DNA from: Dillenia suffruticosa
Taxonomy: Eukaryota; Streptophyta; Magnoliopsida; Dilleniales; Dilleniaceae
Direction of reading: 5' to 3'
Length of the DNA: 64,000 bases
Assembly (NCBI GenBank): GCA_033439265.1
Contig: JAVTVX010000013.1
Coordinates: 20,626,500-20,690,499, forward strand
The translations under genes and the position numbers were made by a program. Position 1 is the stretch's first letter; the number at the start of each line of letters is the position of its first letter. The notes below the pieces were generated by a model. It was given only the letters and a program-made list of their open reading frames with translations. It searched no databases and was not told where the DNA came from. This document shows, one piece after another, positions 9,980 through 64,000 of this stretch.

Positions 9980-10084
9980 TGTATTCAATAGGCAAGCACA
10001 AGATTACAGAAAAAGGAAGGATGGAGAGAGTGCACGAAAAGAAAACCCTTGTTGTTGAGTGATTTGACTCCAAGGAAGCCCTAT

Positions 10085-19382: not shown

Positions 19383-20998
19383 TCAAGCGACACGTTTTGT
19401 GGGAATTGCCATCACTGGTTCGGCCTTCCTCATCGACACCCCTGTTTGATCGACATCCATTAATTCTCGGGTGGTCATGTTCGTAAGCTCCCAATCGAAG
19501 TTGTGCAGCAAGGAGCCGGCAATAAGGTGCAGCATACGGTGTGCTATAGGAATACCGGGGCACATTCTTCGTCCTGCTCCGAATGGGATTAGTTCGTGGT
19601 GTTGTCCTCTAAACTCAACTTTGGAGCCCAAAAACCTCTCTGGCTTGAAGCTGTTTCCGTCCTCCCAAATCTCGCTGTCCCTTCCAATTGCCCAGGAGTT
19701 CACAAAAACTTGTGTGCCTTTTGGTATGTCATAGCCCATAAACTTGGTGTCTTTGACTGCGCTTCGTGGTAGGAGGAAAGGAAGTGGTGGATGTAGCCGT
19801 AAGGCTTCCTTAACCACGGCTTGCAAGTATGGCAAGTCATCGATGTGGCTCTCCTCAACCTTGTTGTTTGGTCCAACCACGCGAGCAAGTTCTTCTCTAG
19901 CCTTGGCCATGCACTCTGGCTTGTGGAATAACTCTGCCAAGATCCACTCTGTGGTACTGCTAGTAGTTTCTGAAGCAGCAATGAAGAGCTCCTACACCCG
20001 CAAAACATTTTAGATTTCAAACCCTTTGATAGGGAGAGATAAATATATTTTTTTCCTAATTGTAAATATTATGATAAGTACTGTAATAAAAGAGGTTTTA
20101 CCAGCACGACGACAGTGATTTCTTGCTCGGAGAGCTTGGTGAGCTCATCTTTCCCGTCTCCTTCAAACTCTATTAATACGTCGAGAAAATCCTTGGGCCT
20201 GTTGTGCTCCACTCCCTTTTTCCTCTCCTCCATGCGTTCCTTTAGGAACCCTGAGGTGATCCTCAGTACATCACCCATGTCACTGGTCACTCTCCGCCTC
20301 ACCCCTTGCAAGTCAAGCCACCTCAACCAAGGGAATGCATCAGACATGTTAGCTTTCCCTGCCCATTGAATCATTCCATGCATGGCCTTGCAAAACTCGG
20401 ATCCTTCCTTAGAGTTGGGGTCCAACAAGTCTCGTGACAACATAAGATTGCCTACCATGTTGAACAAGGTCAAGTAGATAAAGTGTCCCACGTCTATTGT
20501 GTGTGGCTTGCGGGCCTCCTCATCTAGCCATGCAAGCATTTGGTCCACGCACTTGCGCCTAATGGGCGCGGTCTCATTGATCCGCTTAGCCACCAGCATG
20601 TCCACGGTGCATATGCGCCTTAGCACACGCCAATACGTGCCGTGAGGCGCCAACCCGAGCGAGCGCTTGTGGTAGTCATGGCATCTCATGGAGTCCACTA
20701 TAGCCCTATCTGCAAAGCTCAAGTCGTGGTTCTTGAAAAATTCTGCTGCAGTTTTGGCTGAGGAAATCACCACGGTGCGGGCTGAGCCAATCTTAAGTCC
20801 GATGATCGGCCCGTATTTTTCTTTCATGCGGGCCAAGTCCCGATGTGGCATCGACCCTGACAAATCTACTATGTTACCAATGATGGGGTAGCCTGGAGGG
20901 CCGGGTGGGAAGTTATCGGGCTTTCTACGGCGGAAGAGGTGAATAAGGATTGGTGTGAAGCAAATCACACACCATACAATGGCATTCCAAGTCTCCAT
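19383..20998 (-). CDS. Cytochrome P450, CYP76 family (CYP-3), two exons
   Basis: Exon 1 is 20102-20998 and exon 2 is 19383-19991, with a 110-bp GT-AG intron in phase 0; the product is 501 residues. I chose the ATG at 20998 because the TATA box is about 100 bases upstream and the encoded start METWNAIVW aligns with MELTWNAIVW of CYP-4. The longer open frame upstream is leader sequence. Features: membrane anchor, hinge FPPGPPGYPIIGN, I-helix AASETTSS (Ala where CYP-1 has the usual Gly), KEALRLHPP (ExxR), FKPERF and heme loop FGAGRRMCPG with Cys443. It is expected to be an ER-bound monooxygenase of the CYP76 type, perhaps on terpenoids. The substrate is not known. It differs from CYP-4 by only three protein positions that I can find: a missing residue 3 (Leu), Asp/Asn just before the hinge, and Asn/Ser in VVGP(N/S)NK. 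Confidence 0.93.
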
Positions 20999-21096
20999 TG
21001 TACTGAATCGGCAAGCACAAGAAAAGAAACAATCAGAGAGAAAGAAGAAATAGAGAGCTGTTGTTGGGTGGCTTGCCTCGAAGTTAACCCCACTGC

Positions 21097-21103
21097 TTAT
21101 ATA
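21097..21103 (-). promoter_or_regulatory. Putative TATA box of CYP-3
   Basis: TATATAA on the minus strand, about 100 bases before the start codon. The same position is kept in CYP-4. Confidence 0.6.
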
Positions 21104-23035
21104 CAACAGGTCGGAATGATTTTTAAAATATTTTATAGCAGACTTTATTGAACACAGATAAAATAGAATTTTCAACTGCAAAAAAATATACATAATGCTC
21201 GTTTTGAAAATGTAATGAATTAGAACGACAGGAAATGCTAAATTTTCTTTTTAAGTTTTAAATGACTTTTTAAAGCAAAAATTATTAATATAATATAAAT
21301 TAATTTAAATAAAATAAAATTAGTTGTGTCAGATTGACCTTTTGAAAACATAACAATTACAAAATTTTGGACCTCTTGGAAATGTGAGCCCATGCCTGAA
21401 TAGTTCAGTTTCTTACGAAAGCAGATAAGATTCGCTTGTACAACCAATGATAGTCGATGGAGAGTCATAGCTACCGGAGGCAGGACCATTTCGAACCAAA
21501 CAAATAACATGAGGAAATGAAAATGTCATATCTCATCAAATAAATTTTGATAAAACTTAGTATGAAAAAACGATCGTACAGCTTGTGAAAATTTGTCTAA
21601 TTTCATCGGAATAATTTGCTTTTTCAAGAAAAAGTCGATAAAAATTGTAATAATAAATATTTTTACTTAGTTTATTAATAAGATGATTTAGTAATAAAAA
21701 TGATTGAATTAATAAAATACCAAATATTAATTCTTCAAATTCTTATGCAATTGTAATTATTCACGGGGACATGATTTCAACAGGGGTCAAGTTTTATGTG
21801 GATTTACAAATCTCGAGTTTTATATTTATTGCTATTAGAACATTCTCTACATATTTCCATAATTTTAAAAAAATTCAACACCAAATTATATATTTAACAC
21901 CCTTAATTTAAAAAAAAAAAGATATCTAAATAACATGATTTTACATCATTAAATCCTGATCGATACCCGTTGATTATTAAAGAAATAAACTAATTTCAAT
22001 TCAGAGGAATTGTACGGTTACCGTACCATAGCCAATTTAAGTAAGGGGTGACGTGCTAATTTTGTAGATAAATATACAAAAATGAAATTAATTAAGCAAT
22101 TTATTATAAAATTGATAAAAATAAGTTGAATTTTAATAGAACGGTAATAAAATGACTGTACTTTTTTAATCTCCTATATGAGAATTTCAAAACTGGCAAC
22201 GATTTATTCATATTAAACTATATCAATGGTCAGAGTCAGAAATCTCAGGTTATCCTTTTTTGACGGGAAAGAGAGGTTCGTTGAAAGTGGGCCCCGACAG
22301 GACAGCCCCGCGTAGAAGACTTTGACCATACGACCCTACCAATTAGACTATCCTATTTCGAGTGTTGAACCGGCGAGGGGAAGCATTTCCCTTGGAGGTG
22401 GTATTCACAGTTTATTTCTACTTATCATCACTATTTTTACTACAATAATTTTGCATAAATCAAATAATTTATAAATTAAATTATATATTATGGTTTATAT
22501 CAATATAATTCAATAAATTTTAACTAATTTAAATAAATAGTAACTAAAAATTCATCGAAATATATTGAGTAACACTTAATATTTAGTTTATTTATTTCAT
22601 AATTTATTTGATTTATATTATATTATCTTTTATTGAAATATAGGATCTAAACCGGTAGATGACTCAGACAAGTAACTGTTGTTATTTTTAATAGAGCAAT
22701 GTTGAATTCTAATAATTTCGTTTTATACAATAATTATACGGAAAGAATTATATCAAAAATGTTATTCAAATAACTTTTCCTCTTTTTTTTTTATCTTGAA
22801 TATAAAATGGTTATATGATAAAATTAAAAAATATTGGATTAGAAATGAAAAAATATATATTAAATTGGAAATGAATTCAATTGTAAATAAAATACAAGAG
22901 TATCATATGATGTGGTTTGAATATATGTAATAAAGACCCAAAAATATATCAGTTAAAAGGACTAAGAGTTTAGATATAGGGTATTTAGAGAAATATCGTG
23001 GTGAATCATTGAAAATTTAAATACAAATTGTTCGA

Positions 23036-25565: not shown

Positions 25566-28138
25566 GTTACCTATGGCCAACACCGGAACGTTTGTGGAGG
25601 GCGATATTGTTGGGGGCTACCTTACACCGTCTTTGGGTGATAGTTAATTCCTCCACCAAAGAGAAAAAGAAAAGGATAGATACATACAACTACACCATAA
25701 TTAAAGAATAAAAAAGATGAGAGCAGAGACAATGAACCAAAAAGTAAAGGGATGTGCAGATGGGTTTGATATTTGAATCAGGCATTTTGCTGGTGGTAGC
25801 CCTCCCATCGCAGTGGAGCGGCTATCCATTTTGTTATCTTCCTTCCACCTTCTTTTTCACCAAAAAATTTAAAGGAAATTGTAAAAAAAAAAAAAAAAAA
25901 AAAAAAGTTCAAGAAGATTTGACGAATGTTGAGCTTTATTTCATAGAAAATTATTCAATAGGATGGGCTGTAAACTTGTCGCTCACAAAAATACAGATAA
26001 TAATTATTTTTTTCATTCAAATTACCAAAAAAAAAAAAAGTCATTGTAAAATATAAATTTGCTTTATCATATAAAGCGACATCAAGCCTCAATATTTTGT
26101 TTTTTTTTTCGTATTTCCATTAACAAGAAATTAAATGAAAAAAAAATAATTATGATATTTTTGGGGTACTTATTGAATATATATAGTGATTATAAAAAAA
26201 TAATTAATTTTGAATATAGACCGGATGAGTTACTAGTCTGATACGTAACCCATTATACCCTACTTTAAAATTTTGTCTTAATGATTAGTTTTAATTATAT
26301 AGTAATAATACTTGTTCTACAATTTTCTAATTTTTTTATTATTATTTTAAAATTAGAAAGAGTCTAAAATTAATAGGTAAAATTTTTATTAGTGAACTTA
26401 GGTGCACCAAGTAACTCCAAAATCATGTATGATAATGAATTATAATTCAATTGATATCGTTTCTCCTCCGTTGTAAAAGTCTCCAATCCACACATCTCTA
26501 GGTACCAAAAAAAAAAAAAAAAAAATCACGTCCTCTCTGTTCTTCCATCTTATCTCCATGGTCATGTTCTCTTGTTCTTCTATTTTTATTATACTTTTTA
26601 TCACAAACAATTACAGAAGTCTCATTCAAGCAAAATAATAAAAGTCATAGAATTCTATTTAAAATATTTATCCCCTTCAAATTTACAGAATTGTTAATTT
26701 CAATATTGATCATTTAAGTTTAGCTAATTAAAAATATAAAATAATATGAATATAAAAAATAGATGAATATTATTGTAAGACCATATTAGAGAATAAAAAT
26801 AATATAGAAATATAAAATCTTATACTTAATTACTTCAATGGAAAATTATAATAAGTTGTATTTATATAAAAAATTTATTATTATAAATATAGAAACAATT
26901 ATTACAAATATAAAAATATAAAAATAAGAAAAAATTAAATATGCATTAAAATCAAATCAATTATTAATTTAATTTTTATATATAACATATTTACTAATTT
27001 CTCTCCTCAAACTTAATACGACGTAGTTAAAATTACTTGAATTTAAAAAATGTGATAGGTGTATGTTGGGGTGACCCAAAAACATGTTTTAGCAACTCTA
27101 AAGAGCGGCTTTTTCTAAAAGGGACCATGAGTCTTCTAGCGATAGCTCTTCTGAAGGCACGCGTAGACGTGGAAATAACCCTTTTGGAAAGGAAACTCGA
27201 TGACAAATTAAAAATATAAAATAATATTAATATAGAAGATAAATAAATATGGTTATAATATCATATTAAAGAAAAAATAATAATATAATAATATAAAATC
27301 TAACACATTGTTTTTTAGATATTTATATAAAAAATCTATTATTACAAATATAGAAATAATTATTATAAATATAGAAATTTAAAAATAAAAAAATTAAATA
27401 TATATCAAAATTAAAAGTTTCCTTTTATTTAGCAAAAGAAATATAAAAAAGAAAAATAAAGAAAAAAAGAAAGAGAAACTAGTTCTATTATAGGATCCCA
27501 ATGGTATTTTAAGCGGGGATAACTTAGAACGGTGAAACTTCCACTCTCACGAGTACACATAAATAAATTGTACTTGCTTCCTCCAATGAAAACCTATGTG
27601 AAAACGGATGTGTCAACAGCTGGCAGGTTGGCAAGACTTCCGACTTTAAACAGATAGAAACTATAGGCGAGGAATAAGAAAAGAAGAAAGGGTTAGAATT
27701 GGGAAAGAGAAAATTTTGCATGAAAAACTCGATTTACAGGATGGATGAATGGCTTTCTTGGTTCTCATTATTTGTTACCAAATGTTCTTCCTTCCCTATT
27801 CTTGCCCTTTACCAAAACTGGAACCTGTCGCTAGAGAGTGAAGAGAAAAAAAGGAAGGGAAAGAGTGTAGGGAGAGGAAGAAGAGAGAGGGGAAGAACGA
27901 GGAAATAATGAGTACTACTGCTGTATTTAATAGAGAATATTTGGTATTAAAAGTAAATCAATAATATTTTGATTGTCAGAATACTTTACTTGCTATTTTT
28001 TTTATATTTCTATATTTATAACGGTGGAATATTTTAATACCCAATTTAAATGTAATAGTGTTATTGAAGAAATGAATGAATAGGGTTTCCGCTTCTCATA
28101 CTTAATTTTGTACGACAGTATCAGTTCGCAAAAGAGAG
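25566..28138. other. Intergenic upstream of the exostosin gene
   Basis: No gene recognised. Two copies of an AT-rich dispersed repeat are at about 26735-26990 and 27205-27417. Poly-A runs lie near 25881-25906 and 26507-26525. The last few hundred bases before 28139 should include the exostosin promoter, but I cannot identify a clear TATA box. Confidence 0.5.
26735..27417. repeat. Two copies of an AT-rich dispersed repeat
   Basis: About 26735-26990 and 27205-27417 share the order ATATAAAATAATAT, ATAGATGAATAT or ATAAATAAATAT, ATCATATTA, TATAAAATCT, TTATATAAAAAAT, ATTATTA(T/C)AAATATAGAAA, AAAAATTAAATAT. A third copy is at about 16556-16825. Family unknown. Confidence 0.55.
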
Positions 28139-28709
28139 ATGGGAAACAATAGGTTGTGTGGATGTTGGACATCGGAATCTTCATCAACAAAGTTGGTTTT
28201 TATTATGATTCCTTTGATTTTAGTATTTGGGTTTGTTTCAGTATGGCGTCCTCCTTCCTTGCATTGGTTTTCTATTTCTCAGTCTTCTTCTTCTTCTTCT
28301 TCTTCTTTCATAAACTCTAGCAATTCATTTCGGGAAGAGACACTTTATAATAATACAAAGGAAAGTGTACCGTTGGATGTAGGAAAATCTTTCGAAGAAA
28401 ATCTTCCTTCTTCTGCTCCGGTTGTTGAAGAAGTTGCTGAAATTCCAAAGCCTGTAAGCATCTTTTCTTCTTTCACAGCTTAATTTTTTTCTTCTTGCTG
28501 TCAAAGCTAAGTAAAGAAATATGCCACAACTAAATCTCTATAAACCCGTGTGTCATTAATGTTTCTGCATAATCTCTTCTCTTTGAAATTGAAATGTTCG
28601 CTCTTCATTTTGAGAGAGAGAGAGAGAGAGAATTTCTAGTTTATCAGGAGCTTGTACATTTATTTACCATTTTTTGTGATTTTTCATCCAAATGAAAACC
28701 TATCTTTGC

Positions 28710-28750
<41 letters not shown>

Positions 28751-31169
28751 GGATTTTGAAGCTTCCCCTGTTTCTGCTTACAGGACAGAGTTGTAAGAAC
28801 TTTGAGAAAATGCAACTCTCATTTTTTCCAAATTTCACCTTTATTCCCCACCCCCAAAGCCCCACAGAAAGAACTTGAGTTCTGATTCATATTTCTAGCT
28901 TCTTTTGTCGAATTACACATTAATTTAACACCGGCATTAATGATTTTTATTAATAACGTCCAAAAAAAATTCCCTCCAAGTTACAACTATCTAATGAAAT
29001 TCCGTGTGTGTGTGTGTGGATGTTGGACATTTTTCTGTTTTATATTTATTTATTAATTGAACCCTTTATTTATTTAGCTACCCATTTTTCATAAATACGA
29101 ACAAAAAACTTGATGATTTTTTTCTGAAAATTTCAGGTTCTAAAGGAATAAGTAAAAAGACAATGAGTGGGAATTCCTTAAGCGAATGTGAACTTAAAAG
29201 AACCGATTTTCTTTATACATACTTATATTTCTTTTCCTTTTTTTTTGGGGGGGGGGGGGAATTCATACCCTATTTACTTGCGCGGTTGATTTACCAATTC
29301 AAGTTTCATATTGAACAAATTGTTACTCATAAATTTACACAATTTCAGATTTTGTTATTGTCTGATTACTCAAAAGTAATCATGCTTCTGTTTGGGTTTT
29401 TTTTTTCGGGGGTGTTCATATGCTATTTACTTGCACAGTTGATTTACCGATTCGTGCTTGGTATTGAACAAATTTTTACTTGGAAGCTTGCACAATTTCG
29501 GGTTTCGTTGTTGTATTGTTAGTTCACAAAGTTTTTATCCATGAATTAATCACATCTTTTTAGAGTAGATTTAGATTTTTTTTTTTAACAAGTATAGCTA
29601 TTGTCTTAATCCGTGGCATATTTCTTTCAAAAAATGAGACGTCACCCACGTAATTACTTTAACTGCTTCCGCTAATGTAACTTATATTGAGCTTCCGTAC
29701 AATGAAACTCAAGTTGTTCCTTCCATGAAGAGACCGCGAAGAAAGTATTCAAGATTAAGGAAACTTGAAGCCGGTCTGAGTAAAGCTCGAAATGCAATCC
29801 TCGAAGCCAAAAATGGTAACAACTCACAAGACCCCGATTACGTCCCACAAGGTCCAATGTATTGGAATCCACAAGCATTTCACAGGTAGACGAATGAGCA
29901 CAACGCCATATATATGTTCCAAATTCACATCACATGTTGTACACTAGGGCCTATAAATTATGACGAATGTTTTTTAAGTGCAGGAGTTATTTGGAGATGG
30001 AGAAAAAGTTTAAAGTTTATGTGTACAAAGAAGGGGAGCCTCCCGTTTTTCACAATGGTCCCTGCCAAAGCATATATTCCACGGAAGGAAATTTTATCGG
30101 TATGATGGAGATAGATAGCCAATTTCGAACAAATGATCCCGATAAGGCTCATGTGTTCTTCCTCCCCTTCAGTGTGGTAATGCTTGTAAAATTTGTCTAT
30201 GTTCCCGACTCTCATGATTTCGGTCTCATTAAGAAGACTGTCTTTGACTATGTCAACGTTATTTCTAACAAGTATCCTTACTGGAATCGAACCCTTGGAG
30301 CCGATCACTTCATGCTTTCTTGCCATGATTGGGTAAGAATACTTCATCACTGCAACCATCTCGTTTACAATAATTAGTCATCTTTTTCTGATTCGTACTC
30401 ATATGTTCTATTATTAAGTAGTTTTAGATGCCTCATTTACAACTAGAATGATTTTCGGTGGCTTTTATTGTTGTGTTGAAGCAAACTAGTACTTGCGGTG
30501 TTGCAGGGGCCAGAGACTTCAAAAGCCGTACCTAATCTATACAAAAACTCGATTCGCGTTCTCTGCAATGCAAACACGTCAGAGGGCTTTAAACCCTCCA
30601 AGGATGTGTCCTTACCGGAAATCAATTTAAGGGGCTCCATCAGCAGCCTTCTTGGAGGGCCATCCCCTTCGAAGAGGCCCATCTTGGCTTTCTTCGCAGG
30701 AGGAGTTCACGGGCCAATTAGGCCATTATTGCTCGAGCATTGGGAAAACAAAGACAACGATATACAAGTTCATAGATACCTTCCCAAAGGTGTCTCCTAC
30801 GATAAGATGATGAGGAAGAGTAGATTTTGCCTTTGCCCAAGCGGGTACGAAGTGGCAAGTCCTAGAGTTGTGGAGGCGCTTTATACTGGTTGTGTTCCTG
30901 TTCTTATTTCGGACCACTATGTGCCCCCGTTTTCTGATGTCCTAAATTGGAATTCATTTTCGGTTGAAGTTCCACTGAAAGACATTCCTAGACTAAAGGA
31001 AATTCTTACAAGCATATCATCAAGGCAGTACATAAGACTGCAAGGCAGAGGTGTGCAAATTAGGAAGCATTTCGAGGTTCATTCTCCACCCCAACGGTAC
31101 GATTTCTTCCATATGATTCTGCATTCCATTTGGCTCCGCAGGCTGAATGTTCGTATTCCTGATCAATGA
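28139..31169 (+). CDS. Exostosin-domain glycosyltransferase (GT47 family), four exons
   Basis: Exons: 28139-28453, about 29692-29885, 29984-30332 and 30507-31169, giving about 506 residues. The start of exon 2 is the least certain boundary: an AG at 29690-29691 keeps frame with exon 1, and a TGA blocks the frame upstream of about 29638. This is a type II Golgi membrane protein: a hydrophobic anchor LVFIMIPLILVFGFV lies near residues 19-33, followed by a Ser-rich linker encoded by TCT repeats. The exostosin domain shows KKFKVYVYKEGEPP, the CHDWGP junction across exons 3 and 4, LRGSISSLLGG, RPILAFFAGG, and SRFCLCPSGYEVASPRVVEA with GCVPVLISDHYVPPF. Plant members with this layout are called probable glycosyltransferases of the At3g07620/At5g03795 type and are thought to act on wall glycans in the Golgi. 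The acceptor is unknown. It is intact and sits between the two CYP duplication blocks. Confidence 0.9.
28613..28752. repeat. GA and GT/GA microsatellites in exostosin intron 1
   Basis: A GA run at about 28613-28630 and a GT run joined to a GA run at about 28709-28751. Both lie inside intron 1. Confidence 0.9.
29255..29518. repeat. Diverged direct duplication in exostosin intron 1
   Basis: Two units of about 110 bp (29255-29364 and 29408-29518) share GGGGG, TTCATA, CTATTTACTTGC, GTTGATTTACC, ATTGAACAAAT and GCACAATTTC or ACACAATTTC in the same order, with a period of about 155 bp. Both are noncoding. Confidence 0.7.
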
Positions 31170-36733: not shown

Positions 36734-38352
36734 TCAAGCGACACGTTTTGTGGGAATTGCCATCACTGGTTCCGCCTTCCTCATCGATACCCCCGTTTGA
36801 TCGACATCCATTAATTCTCGGGTGGTCATGTTCGTAAGCTCCCAATCGAAGTTGTGCAGCAAGGAGCCGGCAATAAGGTGCAGCATACGGTGTGCTATAG
36901 GAATACCGGGGCACATTCTTCGTCCTGCTCCGAATGGGATTAGTTCGTGGTGTTGTCCTCTAAACTCAACTTTGGAGCCCAAAAACCTCTCTGGCTTGAA
37001 GCTGTTTCCGTCCTCCCAAATCTCGCTGTCCCTTCCAATTGCCCAGGAGTTCACAAAAACTTGTGTGCCTTTTGGTATGTCATAGCCCATAAACTTGGTG
37101 TCTTTGACTGCGCTTCGTGGTAGGAGGAAAGGAAGAGGTGGATGTAGCCGTAAGGCTTCCTTAACCACGGCTTGCAAGTATGGCAAGTCATCGATGTGGC
37201 TCTCCTCAACCTTGTTGCTTGGTCCAACCACACGAGCAAGTTCTTCTCTAGCCTTGGCCATGCACTCTGGCTTGTGGAATAACTCTGCCAAGACCCACTC
37301 TGTGGTACTGCTAGTAGTTTCTGAAGCAGCAATGAAGAGCTCCTACACCAGCAAAACATTTTAGATTTCAAACCCTTTGATAGGGAGAGAGAAATACATT
37401 TTTTTCCCAATTGTAAATATTATGATAAGTACTATAATAAAAGAGGTTTTACCAGCACGACGACAGTGATTTCTTGCTCAGAGAGCTTGGTGAGCTCATC
37501 TTTCCCGTCTCCTTCAAACTCGATTAATACGTCGAGAAAATCCTTGGGCCTGTTGTGCTCCACTCCCTTTTTCCTCTCCTCCATGCGTTCCTTTAGGAAA
37601 CCTGAGGTGATCCTCAGTACATCACCCATGTCACTGGTCACCCTCCGCCTCACCCCTTGCAAGTCAAGCCACCTCAACCAAGGGAATGCATCAGACATGT
37701 TAGCTTTCCCTGCCCATTGAATCATTCCATGCATGGCCTTGCAAAACTCGGATCCTTCTTTAGAGTTGGGGTCCAACAAGTCTCGTGACAACATAAGATT
37801 GCCTACCATGTTGAACAAGGTCAAGTAGATAAAGTGTCCCACGTCTATTGTGTGTGGCTTGCGGGCCTCCTCATCTAGCCATGCAAGCATTTGGTCCACG
37901 CACTTGCGCCTAATGGGCGCGGTCTCATTGATCCGCTTAGCCACCAGCATGTCCACGGTGCATATGCGCCTTAGCACACGCCAATACGTGCCGTGAGGCG
38001 CCAACCCGAGCGAGCGCTTGTGGTAGTCATGGCATCTCATGGAGTCCACTATAGCCCTATCTGCAAAGCTCAAGTCGTGGTTCTTGAAAAATTCTGCTGC
38101 AGTTTTGGCTGAGGAAATCACCACGGTGCGGGCTGAGCCAATCTTAAGTCCGATGATAGGCCCGTATTTTTCTTTCATGCGGGCCAAGTCCCGATGGGGC
38201 ATCGACCCTGACAAATCTACTATGTTACCAATGATGGGGTAGCCTGGCGGGCCGGGTGGGAAGTTATTGGGCTTTCTACGGCGGAAGAGGTGAATAAGGA
38301 TTGGTGTGAAGCAAATCACACACCAAACAATGGCATTCCAAGTCAACTCCAT
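36734..38352 (-). CDS. Cytochrome P450, CYP76 family (CYP-4), two exons
   Basis: Exon 1 is 37453-38352 and exon 2 is 36734-37342, with a 110-bp GT-AG intron; the product is 502 residues. The start is the ATG at 38352 (MELTWNAIVW); the frame upstream reaches only a TTG. All P450 landmarks are present: membrane anchor, hinge FPPGPPGYPIIGN, I-helix AASETTSS, KEALRLHPP, FKPERF and heme loop FGAGRRMCPG with Cys444. It is nearly identical to CYP-3 in protein, and about 1 percent different in exon DNA by my count. It probably catalyses the same CYP76-type oxidation, with the substrate unknown. Its leader carries a 45-bp tandem duplication absent from CYP-3, so expression could differ between the twins. 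Confidence 0.93.
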
Positions 38353-38381
38353 TGTATTCAATCGGCAAGCACAAGAACAGA

Positions 38382-38471
38382 AAGAATGAGAGAAAGGGAG
38401 AGGAAATAGAGAGCTATTGTTGGGTGAAGAATGAAAGAAAGGGAGAGGAAATAGAGAGCTGTTGTTGGGTG
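38382..38471. repeat. 45-bp tandem duplication in the CYP-4 leader
   Basis: Units 38382-38426 and 38427-38471 are nearly identical (two differences seen). Each begins AAGAATGA and ends TTGTTGGGTG. It lies between the TATA box and the start codon of CYP-4. CYP-3 has one unit. Confidence 0.9.
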
Positions 38472-38496
38472 GCTTGCCTCCAAGTTAACCCCACTG

Positions 38497-42816: not shown

Positions 42817-42825
42817 GATACGAAG

Positions 42826-43090
42826 GAGGAATGTACCGAAATAACTTATTTTTTTTAAAAAAAAATTTTAAATATCTAAGGGGAAAAAAATTTCTCCAAA
42901 TGATCCATATTTGTCGCGGGTTGAACCCGCGACCGTATTTGTCGCGGGTTGAACCCGCGACCGTATTTGTCGCGGGTTGAACCCGCGACAAAGCCACGTG
43001 TTGCATCCCGGGAGGGCTCCGAGCGTGGCAGGGTTTCCGCGTATTTGAAACGCGGAACGCTATGCGTTCCGTGTTTCGAACACGCGGAAA
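42826..43090 (+). repeat. Left terminal inverted repeat of the MULE
   Basis: It pairs with about 49910-50195. It contains three tandem 28-bp units (starting 42913, 42941 and 42969), each a 21-base near-perfect palindrome with arms GTCGCGGGTT followed by a CGTATTT-type spacer. The right repeat has only two such palindromes (50060-50080 and 50088-50108). A CACGTG core lies beyond. The inner limit is approximate. Confidence 0.85.
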
Positions 43091-43114
43091 GCCTGGCCTT
43101 CCAGGCCGCGACAC

Positions 43115-44921
43115 GTGACATCCGCATTCTTCACTCGGCATCCGCATTCTTCACTCGGCTTCACTTCTTCTCCCATTTTTCATTCGAAGTCTCCGCTTTC
43201 CTCTCCTCCTCTCCTCCTCTCCTCTCCTCTCCTCTCATCTTCTCTCACGCCTCTCCTCTTCTGCAGACGAAGAACCCTAACAGAAGGGTCCCGAATTTTT
43301 CTGGATCTATCAATTTAGAGGAAAAAAAAGCTGCTGAAATTGCTGAAATTATTGGAGCATTCAAGATTAGACAATATTTTGTCAAAAAATTTCAAAGGTA
43401 TAAAATTTTTCCTATCTCAATTTAAATTATTTTAGATGCATAATTTTATAATAATGTGTATTTGTGAATGCAATTGATATTTTAAATTCAGTAGATTTGT
43501 ATGACATTTACTGTTAATTTTTAATTAATGATGTTTTTAATTAGGTTTTAGTGAGATTAATTAATTTAATAAATATTAAATATGTAGTTAATATAAATTA
43601 ATATGAAATAGTAATAGTTATATTAAACTAATAACTATTATAAAAATTATAGTTGAAATTATTTTAAATGACTATAATTATATTAAATGATTTTTGATTA
43701 AATTAAAAAATTTTAATATAAATGACTATAATAATACTTATAAAATAATACTTATAAATATTAATGTTGATGTTTAAAAAATTTTAAATTGAACGATTAT
43801 ATTTAAAATTAAAATATATTAACATGTAAATGGTACAATATATTAATATTTTTAGTTTAATATAAAAGTATTAGTAAAAATTAAAAATATGTATCAATTT
43901 TTTTTAATAATTTAAAATTTTTATTTCAAAATTATTTAATAAATGATTTTAGTTAATATTTAGTAATTTAAATCAAAATATTAAAATTATTAAAATTAAT
44001 ATTTGTATGAAATTGAAAATTTATTTTTATCATTCCATTATTAAAATTAGTATTATAAATATAAAGTGAGTTTAGGGTTTTAGATTAAATTTAAATATAA
44101 TGAAGATTAAAATTTTGTTAGTAGTAAGTTAATATAATAATTTAGTAGTAATTATATTTTTATTGGTATTTTTAAATAAAAAATAGTAATAGTTATATTA
44201 AACTAATAAATATTATAAAATTTGTAGTTTAAATTATTTGAAATGACTATATTAATATAAAAATATTATACAATAAATTTAAAAATTTTAATATAAATGC
44301 CTATAATAATACTTAGAAAATATTATAAAATATATATTTACAAGTTAAAAATTACAATGAGGTAAATTAAATATTTGAAAATTATAAATTTAAATATTTT
44401 AAAAAATTATAAATTAATACTTTAAAAATACTTTCAAAATATTATAAAATATTATAAATTTTAAAATTTAAAATAAATGACTATATTTAAATATTTTTAA
44501 GTGACCATATTGTAATTAATGACTATATTAATCTATATAAAATTTGTAAATTAAATTATTTGTAATGACTTTACTTATATTAAAATATTATAAAATAAAA
44601 TAAAAAGTTTTAATATAAATGATTATATTAATACATATAAAATATTATAAAATAAATATTTATAAATTATGAATTAAATTTAGAAATTAAATATTTGAAA
44701 ATACTTTTTAAATATTTTAAAAGATTATAAATTAATACTTTAAAAATAGTATTAAATTTTATAAAATTTAAATTTTAAAATAAATGAATATATTTATTGT
44801 TTTAATAAATATAATATTTATTGTTTTATTAATTGATTTATTTTTAAATTGTTGAATTTTTTTGTATGTTTGTTTCATATTTATAAAATGTATAATTTAT
44901 TTTTTTTATATTTATAGAATA
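43115..44921 (+). other. MULE 5' region: probable leader exon and AT-rich intron
   Basis: A perfect 20-bp tandem duplication (CATCCGCATTCTTCACTCGG, 43119-43158) and a CT-rich tract lead to a possible exon ending at an AAAG/GTATAA donor near 43397-43398. About 1.5 kb of extremely AT-rich sequence with internally repeated ATTATAAAATA and TTTAATATAAATGA blocks follows. An AG acceptor sits directly before the ATG at 44922. Read as leader plus intron from signals only. Confidence 0.5.
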
Positions 44922-47462
44922 ATGGCGGATATGGTAAGTCTGTTATGTTATAGCAATGGTGAAATTGTGACGGGAGACGATGGAGTCCGTTATGACCGTG
45001 GTCCAACAAAGTTGATTAAGGTACGGAGAAATTGTAATTTTACTGAGTTGCTGAAAGTAGTATGCAAGGGTGTTCGAATAAATCTGTTGAGACAACATGT
45101 AGAGATTTTTTATCGATTTCCCGTGTCGTATATGGGAGCTAGTAATGTACGGTTTGAATTGGTTCCGATAAGTGATGAGGACGATATTTTGAATTTGATG
45201 GAATTTGCAATAACTAGGGGAGTGGGTGGAACTATTGAGTTGTACATAAAATCATATGATGGTAGAGATTCGATAGTACAAGATTATGATTACATGGAAG
45301 ATTATCCGCATATCGAATCTCGAGTGGATGTTGCTTTTGCAGACGTAGATAATGATGTTGATAAGGAGGAAATGGCGGAAGAAGAGGCAGAAGAATATTA
45401 TGAAGATGAAGAGGAAGATGATGAAATTGGCGATGGGAGTGGTGGCGGTGGTGCAAACCAGTTAATGGTCGGGCATTCGTCAGTGTCTATAAACATTGGT
45501 GGTGGTAGGAGATATGGGGGCGATGGAGTAGAGGAATCCATATCATTCATGACGATCGCACCGGGTGGTGATGGTTATGTGAGATTTGAGGAAGAACACA
45601 GATTGACATATGATAGTTGGAGTTTCAGCGACGAATTGAAAATGGGTATGAGATTTGAGTCGAAAGAGCAGCTTATTCATGCTGTTAAAATGCATCATGT
45701 TGAACACCACTATCAATTTCGGGTTGGTAAATCAACCCCTGAACTTTGGACAGCAATTTATATGCAAAGGGAAGAAGGTTGTAGATGGAGGTTGCGTGCT
45801 TGTAAAACACGGTTACTTGGTGCATTTGTGATTACAAAGGTCGAGGGACCCCACACATGTGTAAATGCTGGGTTGACGCAGGATCATAGGCAGTTGGATT
45901 CAAATTTGATGGCTAGGCATTTGCTTAATTATGTGAGGGAAGATCCCAGCGTGAAAGTTTCTTTTCTTCGAATTGTTATGACCGAGAGAACGACATATGC
46001 AGTTTCTCGTAGAAGGGTTTGGGCAGCAAAGAGAAGAGCTATAGAGATAGTTTACGGGGATTGGGATGAATCTTACAAACAACTACCTCAGTTGTTAAAT
46101 GCAATAGTGGAAAAAAATCCGGGGACACAGGTAAATTGGAAGTTGGGTCCACCTAATGCCAGAGGGGAACAGGTTTTTGAGGCTTTATTTTGGGCATTCG
46201 GTCTGAGTATCTTGGCTTTTAGGAGTTGTAGACAATTGATAAGTATAGATGGGACTCACCTTTATAGGAAATATAATCACAAATTATTGATTGCATACAG
46301 TATGGATGGAGCGAATCATATTGTCCCGTTGGCATTCGGATTGGTAGATGGAGAGTCACTCGCTTCTTGGTCATGGTTTTTGCGATGTGTGCGAAAGTCA
46401 GTTGTTCGAGATAGGGAGGGTCCCATTTGTTTAATTTCAGATCGACATGAAGGGATAAGGGCAACAGTTGTACGTCCAGAGTTCGGGTGGTCACCTCCCA
46501 ATGCTGTGTGGCGATTTTGTATTCGCCATGTCGCTAGTAACTTCAACACGCACCACAAAAGTCAAGCTTGTAAAAGAGTTGTTACGATTGCCGCGTTGCA
46601 ACCACAGCGGAGGAAATTTGATTTATATATGACAAAGATGAAGGAGATTAAAGAAGACGCTCCTGATTATTTTGCAACTATTCCTCTTGAACAATGGACT
46701 CTTTCACATGATGGTGGTGTTCGTTTTGGATATATGACCACAAATATTAGTGAAAGTTTTAATACCGTGTTAAAGGGGGCAAGAAATCTGCCGGTTTCTT
46801 CTTTGGTACTTAAAACTTTTTATAATTGCGTTAACTATTTTCAGACTCGTTTGGGAGAGGCGAATACGGGAATTGGAAGAGGAGAGCGGTACACTAAATA
46901 TGCGTTCGCCATGTTAGGCAGATGGATGAATACGGCTAACCTTCATACCGTCATTTCTTTTAGTAGGGAGCATGGGATATTTGAGGTCGAAACTGGGAAT
47001 AGACAGACACGGTATGGGTACAAGGGAGGCAATAAACACATTGTCAATGTACGGGAAGAGCATTGCACATGCGGGAAATGGCAAACTTATAAAATTCCTT
47101 GCTCTCATGCGATTGCTGCATTAACACGGACGATGATTGATGTGCATATGATCGTCAGAAAATGGTATACATGGGAACATTAACTTAAGGTTTATGAGCG
47201 TAATTTTTTCCCCATTGGAGACCACTCGGCATGGCCCATTGATTCCTACCCTACAATAATTCCCGATATATCCCTGAGACGTCAGAAAGGAAGACCTAAA
47301 TCATCTCGATATCACAATGAGATGGATCTTCGAGAATCATCGACACGGACATCATGCGGCAGTTGTAGTGCTGAGGGTCATAATAGGAGGAGATGTCCGA
47401 GACGAATGAGGTGCGGACTTTGTGGTCGAGAGGGTCACGATCGAAGACATTGTCCATATTGA
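44922..47462 (+). CDS. MURA-type MULE transposase with an in-frame TAA before its zinc knuckles
   Basis: ATG 44922 was chosen because it follows an AG acceptor and starts MADMVSLLCYSNGEIV, typical of this family; the upstream part of the open frame is AT-rich intron. The frame runs 753 residues to TAA 47181-47183 and then continues in the same frame for 92 more residues to TGA 47460-47462. Domains: an N-terminal PB1-like segment (about 1-105); an acidic linker (about 140-190); a MuDR-type DNA-binding region with CRWRLRACK and PHTC; the DDE core with ISIDGTHL (Asp443), ISDRHEGI (Asp507) and a candidate Glu near 575; and a SWIM zinc finger CTCGKWQTYKIPCSH (Cys715, Cys717, Cys727, His729). After the stop come two CCHC knuckles, CGSCSAEGHNRRRC and CGLCGREGHDRRHC. 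The protein would bind the terminal repeats and catalyse cut-and-paste transposition in the nucleus. The single stop removes the knuckles unless it is read through. Confidence 0.9.
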
Positions 47463-47472
47463 CGATAGAGTA

Positions 47473-49247
47473 GTTTTTCTCCTACAGGCATCGGGCTTTT
47501 TGGGGGTCGCTCGACTTTGTTTTATACAGTTGGATTGACATCTCATCACGGCTCTAGTGGAGAGATGGAGGCAGGAGACACACACATTTCATATGCGCCA
47601 CGGTGAGCTTACAGTTACGTTACAAGATGTAGAAGTTATTTTAGGTTTACCTTTAGATGGGATACCCGTTGTCGCTAGGATAACGGGTTTCTCGTGGATT
47701 GGGCTGTGTCAGAGATTATTAGGTGTTATCTCTCCTCGCTCGGCTTTTAAGGGTCATTCATTGAGTATGCCATGGTTGTCAGCTTTCATAGGTCACTTGC
47801 CCCACGATGCAGATTATGATCATATTTTGCGATGGACACGAGGGTATATATTACTATTGATAGGGGGTGTTTTATTTTTTAATAAGAGTGATTATTATGT
47901 ACATTTACAGTATTTATTAGTATTAGATGATTTAGATTACTTTAGTCGTCGTAGTTGGGGTTCTGCGTGCTTAGCTTACTTGTACAGACAGCTTTGTATA
48001 GCATCGCACGCAGATTCGCATAAGATTTGTGGGGCTCTGATTCTTTTACAGATTTGGGCATGGGAGAGATTTTCATGTATTGCTCCTATTAAGCGATCTA
48101 TATATGTCGAGGGGGATGGCCCATTGGCTTTGCGGTGGAGGACGGAATTTGATGTCACTTCCCTTTCTACACACGTCGTGACAGTGTATAGGGAGGCATT
48201 AGATAGATTGACGAGCGATGATATCGTGTGGCAGCCTTACACTGAGAACGTGTTATCTTCCCTCCCCGATTATTGTCATGAGGGTAGGGATATTTGGCTG
48301 ACTCGGGTACCGCTTATCTGTTTCTCTATTGTAGAGTGGTACTTTTCAGATCGAGTGATCCGTCAGTATGGAGGAATTCAGGTCATTCCGGATCACTGCG
48401 ATACTGAGGATCAATTGCACGATATTAGCTTGCGTAGTTCACAGGAGATAGATTGGTCAGTCGAGCATGCCCGTTACATTGAGATTTGGAATCACCGACG
48501 GGATTATGTAGTCCCTATTGACACGTCAGTTGGACCCACTGTCCATAATTCTTACACCGCATGGTACCGCACCATCTCTCGTATATTTATTAGTCGGCAT
48601 GGCGCTTGTTTGGGATATGTGGTAAGTGTGTAATTTAAATTTTTTTAATTTTTTTTTAATTTCATTTTTTATTTTTTAACTAACGTGTATCGAGATCTTT
48701 ATAGCGTGATTCACTACATCATATTCGAGAAGACTCTGAGGATGTTCATATCCGTGGAATAGCGGATACAGCCATATCAGCTTTGAATGATGACATGGCA
48801 TATCTCCTGAGACCTAGACATCCTAGAGGTCGTGCTGAGAGAGGTGACGAGGAGCATCGACCTCGACGGAGCCGAGCGCGACAACGTCCGAGGGCATCTA
48901 CTCATGATGCGTCACCATTTCCATCTCAGCATCCAGAGGACGTTGCAGGACCTTCGAATACATTTGAGGACTCCTCTTCTTTCTACACACCAGTGTTTGA
49001 GTTCCCTCATTTCTCTACTCCTGACGCCCCACAGAGGGGCATTCGTATAGTTGAGGGACAGACACAGTTTCAGAGAAATGATGCACACACGATGTACCAT
49101 GTTTCTCCTCCTCGTTTTAGTGACGTAGGACCCTCACAGATCACACAATTACATGATATGGGTTTATCGTCCCAAGACAACACTACATATATCAGGACAG
49201 ATTTAGATGTTAGACGTTATGATACAAGAAGGCGACGACAACGTTAG
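47473..49247 (+). CDS. Plant mobile domain (PMD) protein encoded by the MULE, two exons, with an upstream in-frame TGA
   Basis: The main coding exon is about 47557-48621 and the second exon 48705-49247 (donor GTAAGT, phase 0); the open part is about 535 residues. LITALVERWRQETHTFHM, ELTVTLQDVEVILGLPLDG and later PMD blocks identify the domain known from MAIN/MAIL1 and many transposon-borne homologues. The part encoded by 47557 on has no ATG at its start. The homologous stretch GFLGVARLCFIQLD lies in the same frame just upstream but is cut off by TGA 47536-47538, so the 5' end is damaged or includes an exon I cannot define. The second exon is Arg-, Ser- and Pro-rich (RPRRSRARQRPRA) and looks disordered. 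The function of PMD proteins in transposons is not known; host PMD proteins help silence transposons and regulate genes. Confidence 0.85.
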
Positions 49248-49909
49248 TTATATATTATGTATTTTGTATCATATATTATATTAATAATAATTCGATTCAT
49301 TTATATATGTTCATTTCTCGGATTTTATTTGTTTCGTTTCTCCTTTTTGTTTTATAAGAAATTAGTTTTTTTTTTTCAAATTGTTATTTTACTTTAACTG
49401 TTTAGATAATACACATATATCATAGTTTTTTTTTTTCATTCTCTATTTTAAAACTCTATTGATTTTGATTATTTATGCAATATGATATTATTTTTATATT
49501 AAATTAATCAAAAATGAAAAATAATATATTAAAATATAATGATTCTTAACATATAATTTTTAGATACTAATACTAATATTTTGTAATGTTACAATTTTTT
49601 TCAATTATGAGAATTTTTTGTCACTATTTTCTAATTTTTAAAAAATTTTAGAATTATTTTTTAATTTTATAATTTTTCATAAAATTATAAAGATAAACTA
49701 ACCTGATTTATTTTAATTATTATAATACATAATTTTGGATCGTCTAAATTAGATATAATTACAAAAATCGAAATTAAATATAATTATAAAAATCGAATTA
49801 AAATAATTAGGGGGTAATACAATTGGGAGATTAAAACAATTTGGAGGGGGGAATGACGTGCGTTTTTTGAAGGGAATGGCGTGCGTTTTTGAGAGGGAAT
49901 GGGATTGGG
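49248..49909. other. MULE 3' internal AT-rich sequence
   Basis: About 0.65 kb of AT-rich DNA between the PMD stop codon and the right inverted repeat. No gene is seen. Confidence 0.6.
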
Positions 49910-50195
49910 GTAATAGCGTGTGTTTGTGGGGTTTCCGCGTTTGCAAAACGCGGAATATGGTTGGTGCAAAACGGAGTAGGGTTTCCGCGTTTGGAAGACG
50001 CGGAATAGGGTTTCCGCATTTCCAAGACGCGGAAACCTCCCCAGCCAACACGTGGCTTTGTCGCGGGTTGAACCCGCGACAAATACGGTCGCGGGTCCAA
50101 CCCGCGACAAATACGGGTTATTTGGGGAAATATTTTCCCCCTCAGGTTTTTTTTAAAATTTTTTTTAAAAAATGGGTCATTTTCGTACATTGCTC
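49910..50195 (-). repeat. Right terminal inverted repeat of the MULE
   Basis: Pairs with the left repeat. It contains CCGCGTTTG/CAAAACGCGG-type hairpins (near 49932-49956, 49985-50004 and 50013-50033), a CACGTGG core near 50049-50055 and two GTCGCGGG palindromes. It ends in the GTACATTGCTC terminus. Confidence 0.85.
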
Positions 50196-50204
50196 GATAC
50201 GGAG

Positions 50205-59309: not shown

Positions 59310-59816
59310 TTAACATGGTGCATTCTTTAATCCAAAAGGCATGACTAACCATTCATAAAGTCCTATGGGTGTGCTAAAAGCTGTCCATTCTATACTATGC
59401 TGGTGCATCTTGATTTGCCAATATCCTGATTTACAATCTAATTTGCTAAATATATTTCTTCCTTGTATGAGATGTAATAAATTATCCTTAGTTGGTATCT
59501 TATAACTATCTTCGACTGTATTATCATTGAGTCTTTTATAATTTATAACCATTCTTGCTTTACCTCTACGAATTTCACTATGATTTCTAACCATAAATGC
59601 TGCACTTCTATGTTTACTTTTACTTTCTTTAATTAATTTTAAATTCATTAACTCCTTAATTTGTTGTTCAAATTCTAATTTATCTTCTGTACTATATTCT
59701 AAATCTTTAGTTCTTATAACTAGGTCTTCATTTATTAGGTCTAACTTAGCTAACAATTTATTGTTACTCCAGAATTCTAATGGATTTTCTCCTACGAAGT
59801 AGTGATAAACCAACAA
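59310..59816 (-). pseudogene. Caulimovirid reverse-transcriptase fragment
   Basis: About 168 residues on the minus strand. Motifs of the fingers/palm region are clear: RRGKARMVINYKRLND, FSKLDCKSGYWQIKM (the first catalytic Asp region), TAFSTP and MPFGLKNAP. Similarity stops right after GLKNAP, before the YxDD catalytic box, and the frame ends at once in a TAA. Upstream protease and downstream RNase H are absent. The fragment is open but cannot be an active polymerase. The Caulimoviridae assignment rests on this motif style and on the neighbouring movement protein; a Ty3-type retroelement is less likely. Confidence 0.82.
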
Positions 59817-59846
59817 AATCTAAAATAGTTCATAGAAAGTGGTAAA

Positions 59847-60620
59847 ATGATGACATTATTTAAACCAGCGAAGGATAAGAAGGTAATAGAAAGTATAGAT
59901 GAATTAGCAGACATAGATAAGCAAGTAGAAATTTTTAAGAATAACAAGTTAGAATTATTAAATCCAAAAATTTTGTATAATGTAGGAATATTAAGTAAAT
60001 CATCAATTTTTAGACATTTTGAAGAAAAATTTGTAAGTTGTATTAATGAAAACGATCAAGTAAGTATTCAATTAATAGATAAAGAAAGTAGTAAATTAGT
60101 TAAAAAAGATTATAAATACATGCATTTAGGATATATACTTGTAGGAGTTAAAGGATTACATAGAGAAGCATTAGGAACAAGAGTTTTTATTTGTCTTTAT
60201 GATAATAGATTTGTAGATTTAGAACAAGGAATTTTATGTAGCTATGAAATTGATATGAATACTAGAGGAGCAATAATTTATTACTTACCTAATTTTAGTT
60301 TAAATGTTAGAGAATTTTGTAAAAATATTAAAATAGGAATTAAAACAAAGGGATATAAAATGCAAGAAAATTTTGATAATTTAGCAATAAGAGCATTACC
60401 AGCAATACAAATACCTAGTGAAACATACTTAGGAACTGAATGGCAATTAGATACATTTTTAGCAAGATCAAGATTAGAAGCAGATACATGTTATACATAT
60501 AAAGATTTGAATGGAAGGATTAGTTTTAAGTTTGATAATTACAGATATAGAGGAGATATTCAACCTAGTGAGAGTGACGAGACATATAGTTTAACCAGTC
60601 AAGAACATAGAAATGCCTAG
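59847..60620 (+). CDS. Caulimovirid movement protein (30K superfamily) reading frame
   Basis: An uninterrupted 257-residue frame from ATG 59847. The core LGYILVGVKGLHREALGTR followed by DNRFVDLEQG-type sequence is typical of the 30K movement proteins of pararetroviruses, which carry virus through plasmodesmata. The full-length frame inside an otherwise broken insertion suggests a young integration or one that has been little altered by chance. No plant promoter is evident and expression is unlikely. The stop codon overlaps the start codon of the next frame (ATGCCTAG, 60613-60620). Confidence 0.82.
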   Translation: MMTLFKPAKDKKVIESIDELADIDKQVEIFKNNKLELLNPKILYNVGILSKSSIFRHFEEKFVSCINENDQVSIQLIDKESSKLVKKDYKYMHLGYILVGVKGLHREALGTRVFICLYDNRFVDLEQGILCSYEIDMNTRGAIIYYLPNFSLNVREFCKNIKIGIKTKGYKMQENFDNLAIRALPAIQIPSETYLGTEWQLDTFLARSRLEADTCYTYKDLNGRISFKFDNYRYRGDIQPSESDETYSLTSQEHRNA

Positions 60621-62269: not shown

Positions 62270-62632
62270 TTATTTGAGAAGAGGCATTGAACCATTCCAC
62301 AAGCTCCAGCCCTGCTTTTCATTAGTAACATGGCAAGGGCATTTTCTAGCATGCATTCCACACTTGAGAGACTGGATTATCTCTTCAAAAAGAAATTCAT
62401 CACAAGGTAAGGACAACAGTCCATCTTGGTGGAGTCCATATTCTTGATATGCTTGGTCAAGTAGGTTCCTGAAAACTGGATGGTTCGAGTAGTCAGCCCT
62501 GATAATGAACCTTCTTCCAGCTTCCCCCACAGTGACTGCAAAGTGACCAGGGGGAACATCTTGAGGAAGCCCGTTTTCTTCGCACCTGGAAAACTTGGAA
62601 AACTTGCGCCATAGATGCCTCATCTCAGGCAT
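62270..62632 (-). CDS. SAUR family auxin-responsive protein, single exon
   Basis: ATG 62632 gives 120 residues starting MPEMRHLWRKFSKFSR; an internal ATG at 62623 would give 117. The open frame extends further upstream but that part lies near the TATA box and lacks family similarity, so I treat it as leader. The SAUR core is clear: VPPGHFAVTVGE, RRFIIRADYSNHPVFRNLLD, QAYQEYGLHQDGLLSLPCDE and FLFEEIIQSL. A Cys/Lys/Trp-containing tail of about 33 residues follows. SAUR proteins are short, intronless and rapidly auxin-induced; many inhibit PP2C.D phosphatases to activate plasma-membrane proton pumps and cell expansion. I cannot assign the subtype. Confidence 0.9.
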   Translation of the reverse strand: MPEMRHLWRKFSKFSRCEENGLPQDVPPGHFAVTVGEAGRRFIIRADYSNHPVFRNLLDQAYQEYGLHQDGLLSLPCDEFLFEEIIQSLKCGMHARKCPCHVTNEKQGWSLWNGSMPLLK

Positions 62633-62707
62633 TGGATGTGAGAAGCGTGGAAATTTTTCCACAAGGTGGCAGTTGGAGTGGCAGACCAAAAGTTGAAATG
62701 GACGCCT

Positions 62708-62714
62708 ATTTATA
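62708..62714 (-). promoter_or_regulatory. Putative TATA box of the SAUR gene
   Basis: TATAAAT on the minus strand, about 75 bases before ATG 62632. This supports the shorter SAUR start over the longer open frame, which would begin upstream of it. Confidence 0.6.
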
Positions 62715-64000
62715 ATAGAGGACACTACCGTTAGATCCTCTAGAAAATAAGTAGTTATAAACAGCGGAATCCTCAAATGATATGGTAAGCGAGCACCACA
62801 TTTTACTTGATGAAATGGCCAAAGAGTTGTTCAAGATGTTTCGATGTGACTTGGTTTGTCAAGGCTGGTTTATCCTGCCAATAGCTGTGCTTAATTAGTT
62901 TTAGGCAACATTGGATGTAAACACATTGCTCAGTCACGCAGTTATTTACAGATACTTATAATTCTCTTTTTTATGACTAGCATTTTCCAACATAGATGAC
63001 ACTACATTTTTTTTTCTCCGAAATTAGAGAAAATTATGACGGAGCATACTTATGCTTCAGATAGTCTGGGTCTAAGTCTCGTTTTTTTTTTTTTTTTTGT
63101 TATCCTTCATGTGGCATTATTAGTGATATTGTTTGTTGCTTTACGTCAAGAGGCGGAAGAAGAAAAAATATTCCTCCGGTTGTGGTGTTGTTAGTTCAGT
63201 TTGTAAAAACTGAGGCGATATTTGTAAATGTTGAGATCAAGTTTATTAATAGCTGGATTGAGGAGTTAGCTTTTAAGAAGAGAGTGCCCTGTTGTGTAGC
63301 TCAGCCACCCATTGAGATTTTTTCTAAATTTTTAGGGATAATCTACCGATGAACTAAGGTACAAGTCGGGTAATTGGCAATTAGAGAAGTAACAATATTG
63401 ATAGTAGGTACATGATCAAGAAAAAGACCCACCCAGCATGTCTTTGGGAAGGTATGGTCTTTCCTTAATGTGTGCTCATGTGTAGTGCTTCCTCAACGTG
63501 GACTGACAATCCCAAGTGGCTACCTCATCATCGGGCTGAGTTGTTAATCAGGAATTTTTAAGGGAAGAGATCATCTTGGTTTTGTTATGGCATGAAAAAA
63601 GTAATCGAAGAATCAGGTTGTGGGCTTGACCCTCAGATTCAGCTAAAATTGTCTTGAAGAAGTTAGGATTGAACATGGAAGGTATGGGAAATGGTTTTGC
63701 CTCTCCATTTATTTGTGGGATGTTTTTTGTTTTGTTTTTTTGGATACCTTGGCTTGCACACCACCTATCTGAAGTTTCGCTCCTACTAATCTGGATCGAA
63801 CGTTGCAGGACTCATTTTTTAGGGTGGGTCTGTCAACATTGGTCTTTTCGTATTCAGGAGAAGTCGAACGCTCGACCTGATTAGGGGACGAAAGTGCCAT
63901 CCCATTAACAAACATTGGTTTCTTTGTGGGATGTTGAAGACATGAGATTAGTTGACCGATAAGGCATGATCTTAGAATGGTTCTCATTTGAGAATGTTCT
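62715..64000. other. Upstream flank of SAUR and window end, no gene seen
   Basis: No coding exon recognised. A poly-T run lies near 63080-63100. About 63735-63920 resembles the dispersed repeats near 41590-41710 and 10400-10600 (CTACTAATCTGGATCGAAC or CTATTAATCTGAATCGATC). The opposed frames at 63654-63987 are a shadow pair over this repeat. Confidence 0.45.

Follow-up and report, generated by a model that had tools for sequence, protein, structure and literature searches.

A Mutator-like element family of Dillenia suffruticosa carrying a plant mobile domain gene beside its transposase gene: selection on both genes and a possible anti-silencing role

The window analysed here, a stretch of 64,000 nucleotides of Dillenia suffruticosa (assembly GCA_033439265.1, contig JAVTVX010000013.1, positions 20,626,500 to 20,690,499, forward strand), contains a Mutator-like element (MULE) in which a gene for a MURA-type transposase is followed by a gene for a plant mobile domain (PMD) protein. 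The existence of this element and of its family is certain. The order of the two genes was kept in 19 of 20 copies read and in a divergent subfamily, and both genes were found to be under purifying selection; since the PMD is under such selection, it can be regarded, with very little doubt, as a selected component of the element. As to its function, we propose that the PMD would bind arrays of palindromes in the element's own ends and that the bound protein would keep these arrays free of silencing marks, so that MURA could be expressed and could act, as is the case with VANC21 for VANDAL21. Anti-silencing by the PMD at its own arrays is given a probability of about 0.5.

The element, its copies and selection

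Both ends of the element, the long inverted repeats and the 9-bp target duplications with one mismatch (GATACGAAG and GATACGGAG) had been claimed in a preliminary description of the sequence, and all of them were borne out (Table 1); besides the outer arms, an inner inverted arm of 71 nt (42933-43003) is 97% complementary. Target duplications of MULEs range from 8 to 11 bp and are typically 9 bp. The MURA-type transposase and the PMD gene in the same orientation were confirmed by Pfam matches on the plus strand for each. The MURA frame matched the MULE transposase domain (PF10551, E 3.9e-15) and SWIM (PF04434, E 8.2e-8), both above the Pfam cut-offs, as well as the MuDR DNA-binding domain (DBD_Tnp_Mut, E 1.1e-5). 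The DDE motif, which had been noted together with SWIM, was read in SIDGTH (46242), SDRHEG (46437) and NISESFN (46743), whose acidic residues we take to be catalytic. The downstream gene belongs to the PMD family (PF10536; 275.1 bits against a cut-off of 34.9), with a match spanning 47539-48630 (E 1.1e-81), and its exon 2 matched no Pfam family at E up to 0.1.

The copy in the window had also been called complete or nearly whole, which did not hold. The in-frame TAA at 47181-47183 (codon 754) falls between SWIM and the zinc knuckle of MURA, a TGA interrupts the PMD, and alignment revealed that about 375 bp present in L009 to L027 are deleted at about 47455, which removed the spacer together with about the last 10 nt of MURA on one side and, on the other, the start codon and about 139 nt of PMD. 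We somewhat favour the view that the window holds a decayed member of a young autonomous MULE, one that is present in many copies and needs two proteins.

The D. suffruticosa genome (596 Mb) was searched with the left 575 bp of the element, and 40 places, one of them the window itself, were scored among 483 candidates. Twenty of the 40, all of them other than the window's own copy, were fetched with 10 kb each. The exception to the gene order is L028, in which an internal deletion took MURA and the PMD start and left the remainder of PMD. Duplications of 9-10 bp were present in all 20 copies and exact in 16; L009, L016 and L028 have one mismatch, and L014 needs a 2-bp shift and one mismatch. 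Because 40 places in the genome matched and every fetched copy has its duplication, the element is more than a product of chance. The many copies with shared gene order and duplications anticipated earlier were thus present, and a one-off capture, which would be seen as copies without the PMD together with an exact host PMD gene, was not what was found, as 19 copies carry both genes, L028 is a deletion, and none of the seven other PMD loci sampled from the many in this genome is close to an exact match. Both frames are open in seven of the 20 copies (L013, L015, L017, L019, L021, L026 and L027; 19 were read and L028 was counted as broken), with 848 codons in MURA and 615 in PMD. Six of the seven open copies are at least 99.9% identical to L015 over 5 kb; the family has moved recently.

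Eight further MULE-like loci (L029-L036) were fetched, five of which are near the window subfamily, their pieces of MURA and PMD being mostly 86-98% alike, and three of which (L029, L030 and L036) diverge from it. Two of the three, L029 and L030 (here referred to as subfamily B), keep the gene order, and by tblastn their identity to the window subfamily is 75% for MURA and 57-58% for PMD. The element at L030 measures 6.3 kb; its inverted repeat is 219 bp long (98.6%), its 10-bp duplication (ACCATGTTTG) is exact, and its PMD intron lies at the same place as in the window subfamily. Selection was measured on one pair, L015 and L030, with Nei-Gojobori counts. The ratio of nonsynonymous to synonymous substitution rates (dN/dS) was 0.143 for MURA (95% range 0.115-0.179), 0.189 for PMD exon 1 (0.135-0.251) and 0.33 for PMD exon 2 (0.18-0.49), and these ratios are approximate because dS is near 1 and so close to saturation (1.02 in MURA and 1.27 in PMD exon 1, the ranges overlapping). 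Across this longer interval selection acts on the PMD as well as on the transposase, a little less strictly on the former. Within the window subfamily, the ratio over all pairs was 0.74 for PMD and 0.61 for MURA; changes unique to one copy gave nearly neutral ratios (1.02 and 0.82 for the two genes), and changes common to at least two copies, which are small in number, gave 0.40 for MURA and 0.80 for PMD.

Table 1. Features of the element, in positions of the window
Feature	Position	Strand	Remarks
MULE	42826-50195		flanked by GATACGAAG / GATACGGAG
Left target-site duplication, GATACGAAG	42817-42825		8 of 9 bases match 50196-50204
Right target-site duplication, GATACGGAG	50196-50204		one mismatch to the left one
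Left terminal inverted repeat	42826-42961	+	136 nt, 82% complementary to 50060-50195
Right terminal inverted repeat	50060-50195	-	pairs with the left 136-nt arm
Left 21-bp palindrome array	42905-42989		three tandem units with GTCGCGGGTTGAACCCGCGAC; palindrome at 42913, 42941, 42969
Right 21-bp palindrome array	50060-50108		50060 exact, 50088 variant
Left array, second palindrome	43029-43095		TTCCGCG ... CGCGGAA
Right array, second palindrome	49926-50041		three units
AT-rich 5' intron (leader exon to MURA exon), inferred from sites	43398-44917	+	donor AAAG/GTATAA, acceptor TTATAG/AATAATGG
Candidate alternative donor, GTAAGT	44934-44939	+	at MURA codons 5-6; after codon 4, phase 0
MURA transposase frame	44922-47183	+	753 codons up to the in-frame TAA
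MURA frame past the stop	47184-47454	+	zinc-knuckle residues; about last 10 nt deleted
PMD exon 1	47455-48621	+	start codon and about first 139 nt deleted; TGA 47536-47538
PMD intron, inferred from frames and sites	48622-48704	+	GTAAGT ... TATAG; same place in subfamily B
PMD exon 2	48705-49247	+	C-terminal tail

Arrays in the ends, predicted fold and proposed role of the PMD

Two palindromes occur in the ends of the element, one of 21 bp (GTCGCGGGTTSAACCCGCGAC) and another, TTCCGCG...CGCGGAA. In 19 copies the 21-bp palindrome, with its variants, was found 54 times in the arms, and none was found in the internal parts or the fetched flanks. The heptamer TTCCGCG/CGCGGAA occurs 3-8 times on the left and 3-11 times on the right, with none in the internal parts, the flanks or the rest of the window. 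In L030, the one subfamily B element read for these motifs, there are five left and three right matches to the same plan, with one extra, imperfect copy on the right, and the palindrome differs by mirrored changes (GTCGTGASTTSAASTCACGAC). The protein that binds these arrays may be the PMD or MURA, or both may do so. That a single genome holds two subfamilies whose PMDs and arrays differ constitutes a natural swap experiment.

VANC proteins have as their targets arrays of motifs that diverge through repeat formation (PMC5735166, PMC10398659). The predicted structure of the element PMD matches the fold of VANC21, and the sole solved match of this fold is an anti-silencing protein. No DUF1985 was detected by Pfam in the window PMD at E up to 0.1; of 44 relatives, 14 matched it at E up to 1, the best at 0.0018, none above the Pfam cut-off, and five of their scores were 12.5-17.2 bits against a cut-off of 35.1. 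Judged by the predicted structure, the PMD probably adopts the VANC fold and binds DNA in a sequence-specific manner. If it has this fold, the PMD is probably a DNA-binding domain of that kind, which would explain the DOWN motif found in promoters requiring MAIN and MAIL1 (PMC7156037) and would give MULE-borne PMDs a mechanism. More tentatively, PMD and VANC may form one superfamily of sequence-specific DNA-binding proteins carried by MULEs against silencing, host MAIN/MAIL proteins being the same module put to host use and reading the DOWN motif; in that case, the anti-silencing proteins of transposons and a silencing pathway of the host would have one fold in common and would evolve together with arrays of short motifs. 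The question had earlier been raised whether the PMD is an anti-silencing or a targeting subunit. The anti-silencing part is given a physical basis by the VANC21 fold, and the PMD is indeed a selected component; the targeting part is weighed below.

The proposed mechanism also includes the production of both proteins from one promoter, the PMD arising when either a donor that follows MURA codon 4 or that of the leader exon is spliced to the acceptor immediately ahead of the PMD start codon. In L015 the two top-scoring acceptors of 383 directly precede the MURA start (rank 1) and the PMD start, the best donor sits after MURA codon 4, in phase with the PMD start, and the donor matching that of the window's 5' intron is listed 12th. 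The PMD acceptor ranks first of 318 in L029 and L030 although the spacer differs, 148 bases being alike among 219 aligned, and the rank of the codon-4 donor there is fourth of 370 and sixth of 374, respectively. The scores are crude: in L015 they place the inner acceptor of PMD only 105th among 383, and the MURA acceptor comes 14th of 318 in L030 and 15th in L029. The layout of sites fits a single promoter whose transcript either keeps MURA or loses it by splicing, and we hold the chances of such production to be evenly balanced. Alternatively, the PMD could be expressed from its own promoter, or a MURA-PMD fusion could be made; in L015 the MURA stop (5090-5092) and a further 229 bp lie before the PMD ATG (5322), and a joining of the two by splicing is possible.

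The first rival to anti-silencing makes the PMD a subunit for transposition or targeting, which would bind the arrays with MURA for the synaptic complex or for target choice and have no role in silencing. The arrays do lie in and beside the inverted repeats, where the sites of transposases lie, and the N-terminus of MURA is PB1-like (E 0.014 in the window and 0.00018 in P0186, both below the Pfam cut-off) and could mediate oligomerisation. Moreover, of 26 proteins chosen from 69 matches of a Heliosperma MURA-PMD protein as having PMD and MULE-type domains listed in Pfam, 22 show MURA ahead of PMD (Heliosperma 4, Vitis vinifera 10, V. piasezkii 4, Aristolochia 2, Asparagus 1 and Dendrobium 1). 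However, these are gene predictions without context that may be false fusions or annotation errors, the two frames of L015 are separated as described above, and the only solved fold match is an anti-silencing protein; we consider this explanation unlikely.

Rather less probable is a decoy, in which the PMD would pair with host MAIN/MAIL1/PP7L-type proteins, or compete for their DNA sites, and poison host silencing at many loci. MAIN, MAIL1 and PP7L interact and silence transposable elements (PMC7156037, PMC8616336), and counter-silencing by PMDs encoded in transposable elements was already proposed (PMC5418596, PMC8616336). However, a search of the genome gave at least 125 PMD matches (117 scored of 1536 candidates), and with seven other PMD loci sampled from these the element PMD shares no more than 48% identity where the aligned piece has at least 90 residues, the highest value being 58% over one piece of 26 residues. 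In the tree described below it also lies far from loci L038, L039 and L042, which we take to be MAIL-like. The arrays, being specific to the element and different in each subfamily, suit a sequence-specific binder better than a decoy.

That the PMD is merely a captured gene fragment without function is disfavoured and very improbable: MULEs do capture gene pieces (PMC5418596), and PMD differences are nearer to neutral within the window subfamily, but the all-pairs ratio there is also high for MURA, which fits decay after insertion, and against this explanation stand the low PMD dN/dS between subfamilies at dS above 1, the intron place and gene order common to both, and the occurrence of MURA followed by PMD in predicted proteins of other angiosperm families.

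PMD relatives and other features of the window

A search with the PMD returned 792 proteins at E up to 0.001; among the 120 matches listed, the closest relatives are mostly eudicot, the third being from oil palm. The predicted proteins with both domains suggest that the pairing of MURA with PMD ranges wider than the grasses and Amborella, in which PMD-MULE fusions were named (PMC5418596). The other four of the 26 proteins (P0259, P0271, P0273 and P0291, from Cuscuta, Rhodiola, Centaurea and Apium) have PMD before MURA and are possibly independent pairings.

A tree was built of 62 PMDs, namely 54 of the 119 database PMDs of an earlier tree and eight loci of this genome; it contains no sequence named clade A, B or C, and L037 and L043 were excluded. 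The expectation that the PMD would cluster with other MULE-borne PMDs held for the three MULE PMDs of this genome, which form one clade (100/100), and failed for those of Heliosperma and grape, the joint grouping, chosen after the earlier tree had been inspected, being rejected by the approximately unbiased test (p-AU 8e-5). This rejection would imply more than one lineage or capture in the association of PMD with MULEs, or else many unlabelled rows of the tree are also MULE-borne. The excluded loci, about 25-26% identical to the MULE PMD and one of them with stops, are probably a different PMD class.

Several further observations concern PMD genes. L041 (G000:C13:1589800-1592800) is a multi-exon host gene with a partial MURA-like, PB1-like N-terminus and a PMD and no transposase core, and similar proteins were seen in Bauhinia, Lithocarpus, Pistacia and Macadamia (P0026, P0036, P0053 and P0083); this gene may be what is left of a domesticated PMD-MULE. 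Among P0001-P0120, the name "serine/threonine-protein phosphatase 7 long form homolog" is given to many plant proteins for which Pfam lists PMD alone. This name looks misleading, and some proteins so named are probably transposon genes. A PMD joined to a SURF2 domain was found in P0001 (a database contig) and P0091 (Momordica).

Elsewhere in the window, a reverse transcriptase (PF00078, minus strand) and a movement protein (PF01107, plus strand) at 59313-60617 are read as pieces of an endogenous pararetrovirus. Three cytochrome P450 loci lie on the minus strand (5865-10003, 19386-21250 and 36737-38484), the second and third nearly alike by eye, and there are also a GT47 exostosin-type gene (28106-31166) and a SAUR-type auxin-responsive gene (62273-62830).

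Comparison with known systems

MuDR of maize (mudrA/mudrB) has, like the present element, a MURA-type transposase with a second gene, long inverted repeats and 9-bp duplications, whereas the second gene here is a PMD in the same direction and not mudrB. En/Spm of maize makes TnpA and TnpD via alternative splicing of one transcript, to which the proposed production of two proteins from one promoter is similar; it belongs to another superfamily, and splicing is here proposed from the sites. VANDAL21 is itself a MULE, and VANDALs are not known to have the long inverted repeats that are present here.

The MULEs of rice, other grasses and Amborella described by Ikeda 2017 (PMC5418596) likewise combine a MULE transposase and a PMD in one element, and anti-silencing was suggested for them, so that the pairing is not new and, like the anti-silencing guess, was already published. 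Their PMD-C MULEs are described as encoding fusion proteins, whereas the open copies here (L015) have two separate tandem frames. No earlier publication linking PMD to the VANC fold was found in searches of the open-licence literature; what is new here is this fold link, the selection test, the end arrays and the splice layout.

VANDAL21/Hiun with VANC21 (PMC5735166, PMC10398659) shares with the present element an accessory gene of the same predicted fold and arrays of short motifs in non-coding parts that differ between related families. The VANC21 motif is a non-palindromic 9 bp and that of the present element a 21-bp palindrome; here it is PMD, not DUF1985, that is recognised at the Pfam cut-off, and the arrays are limited to the ends in the copies read.

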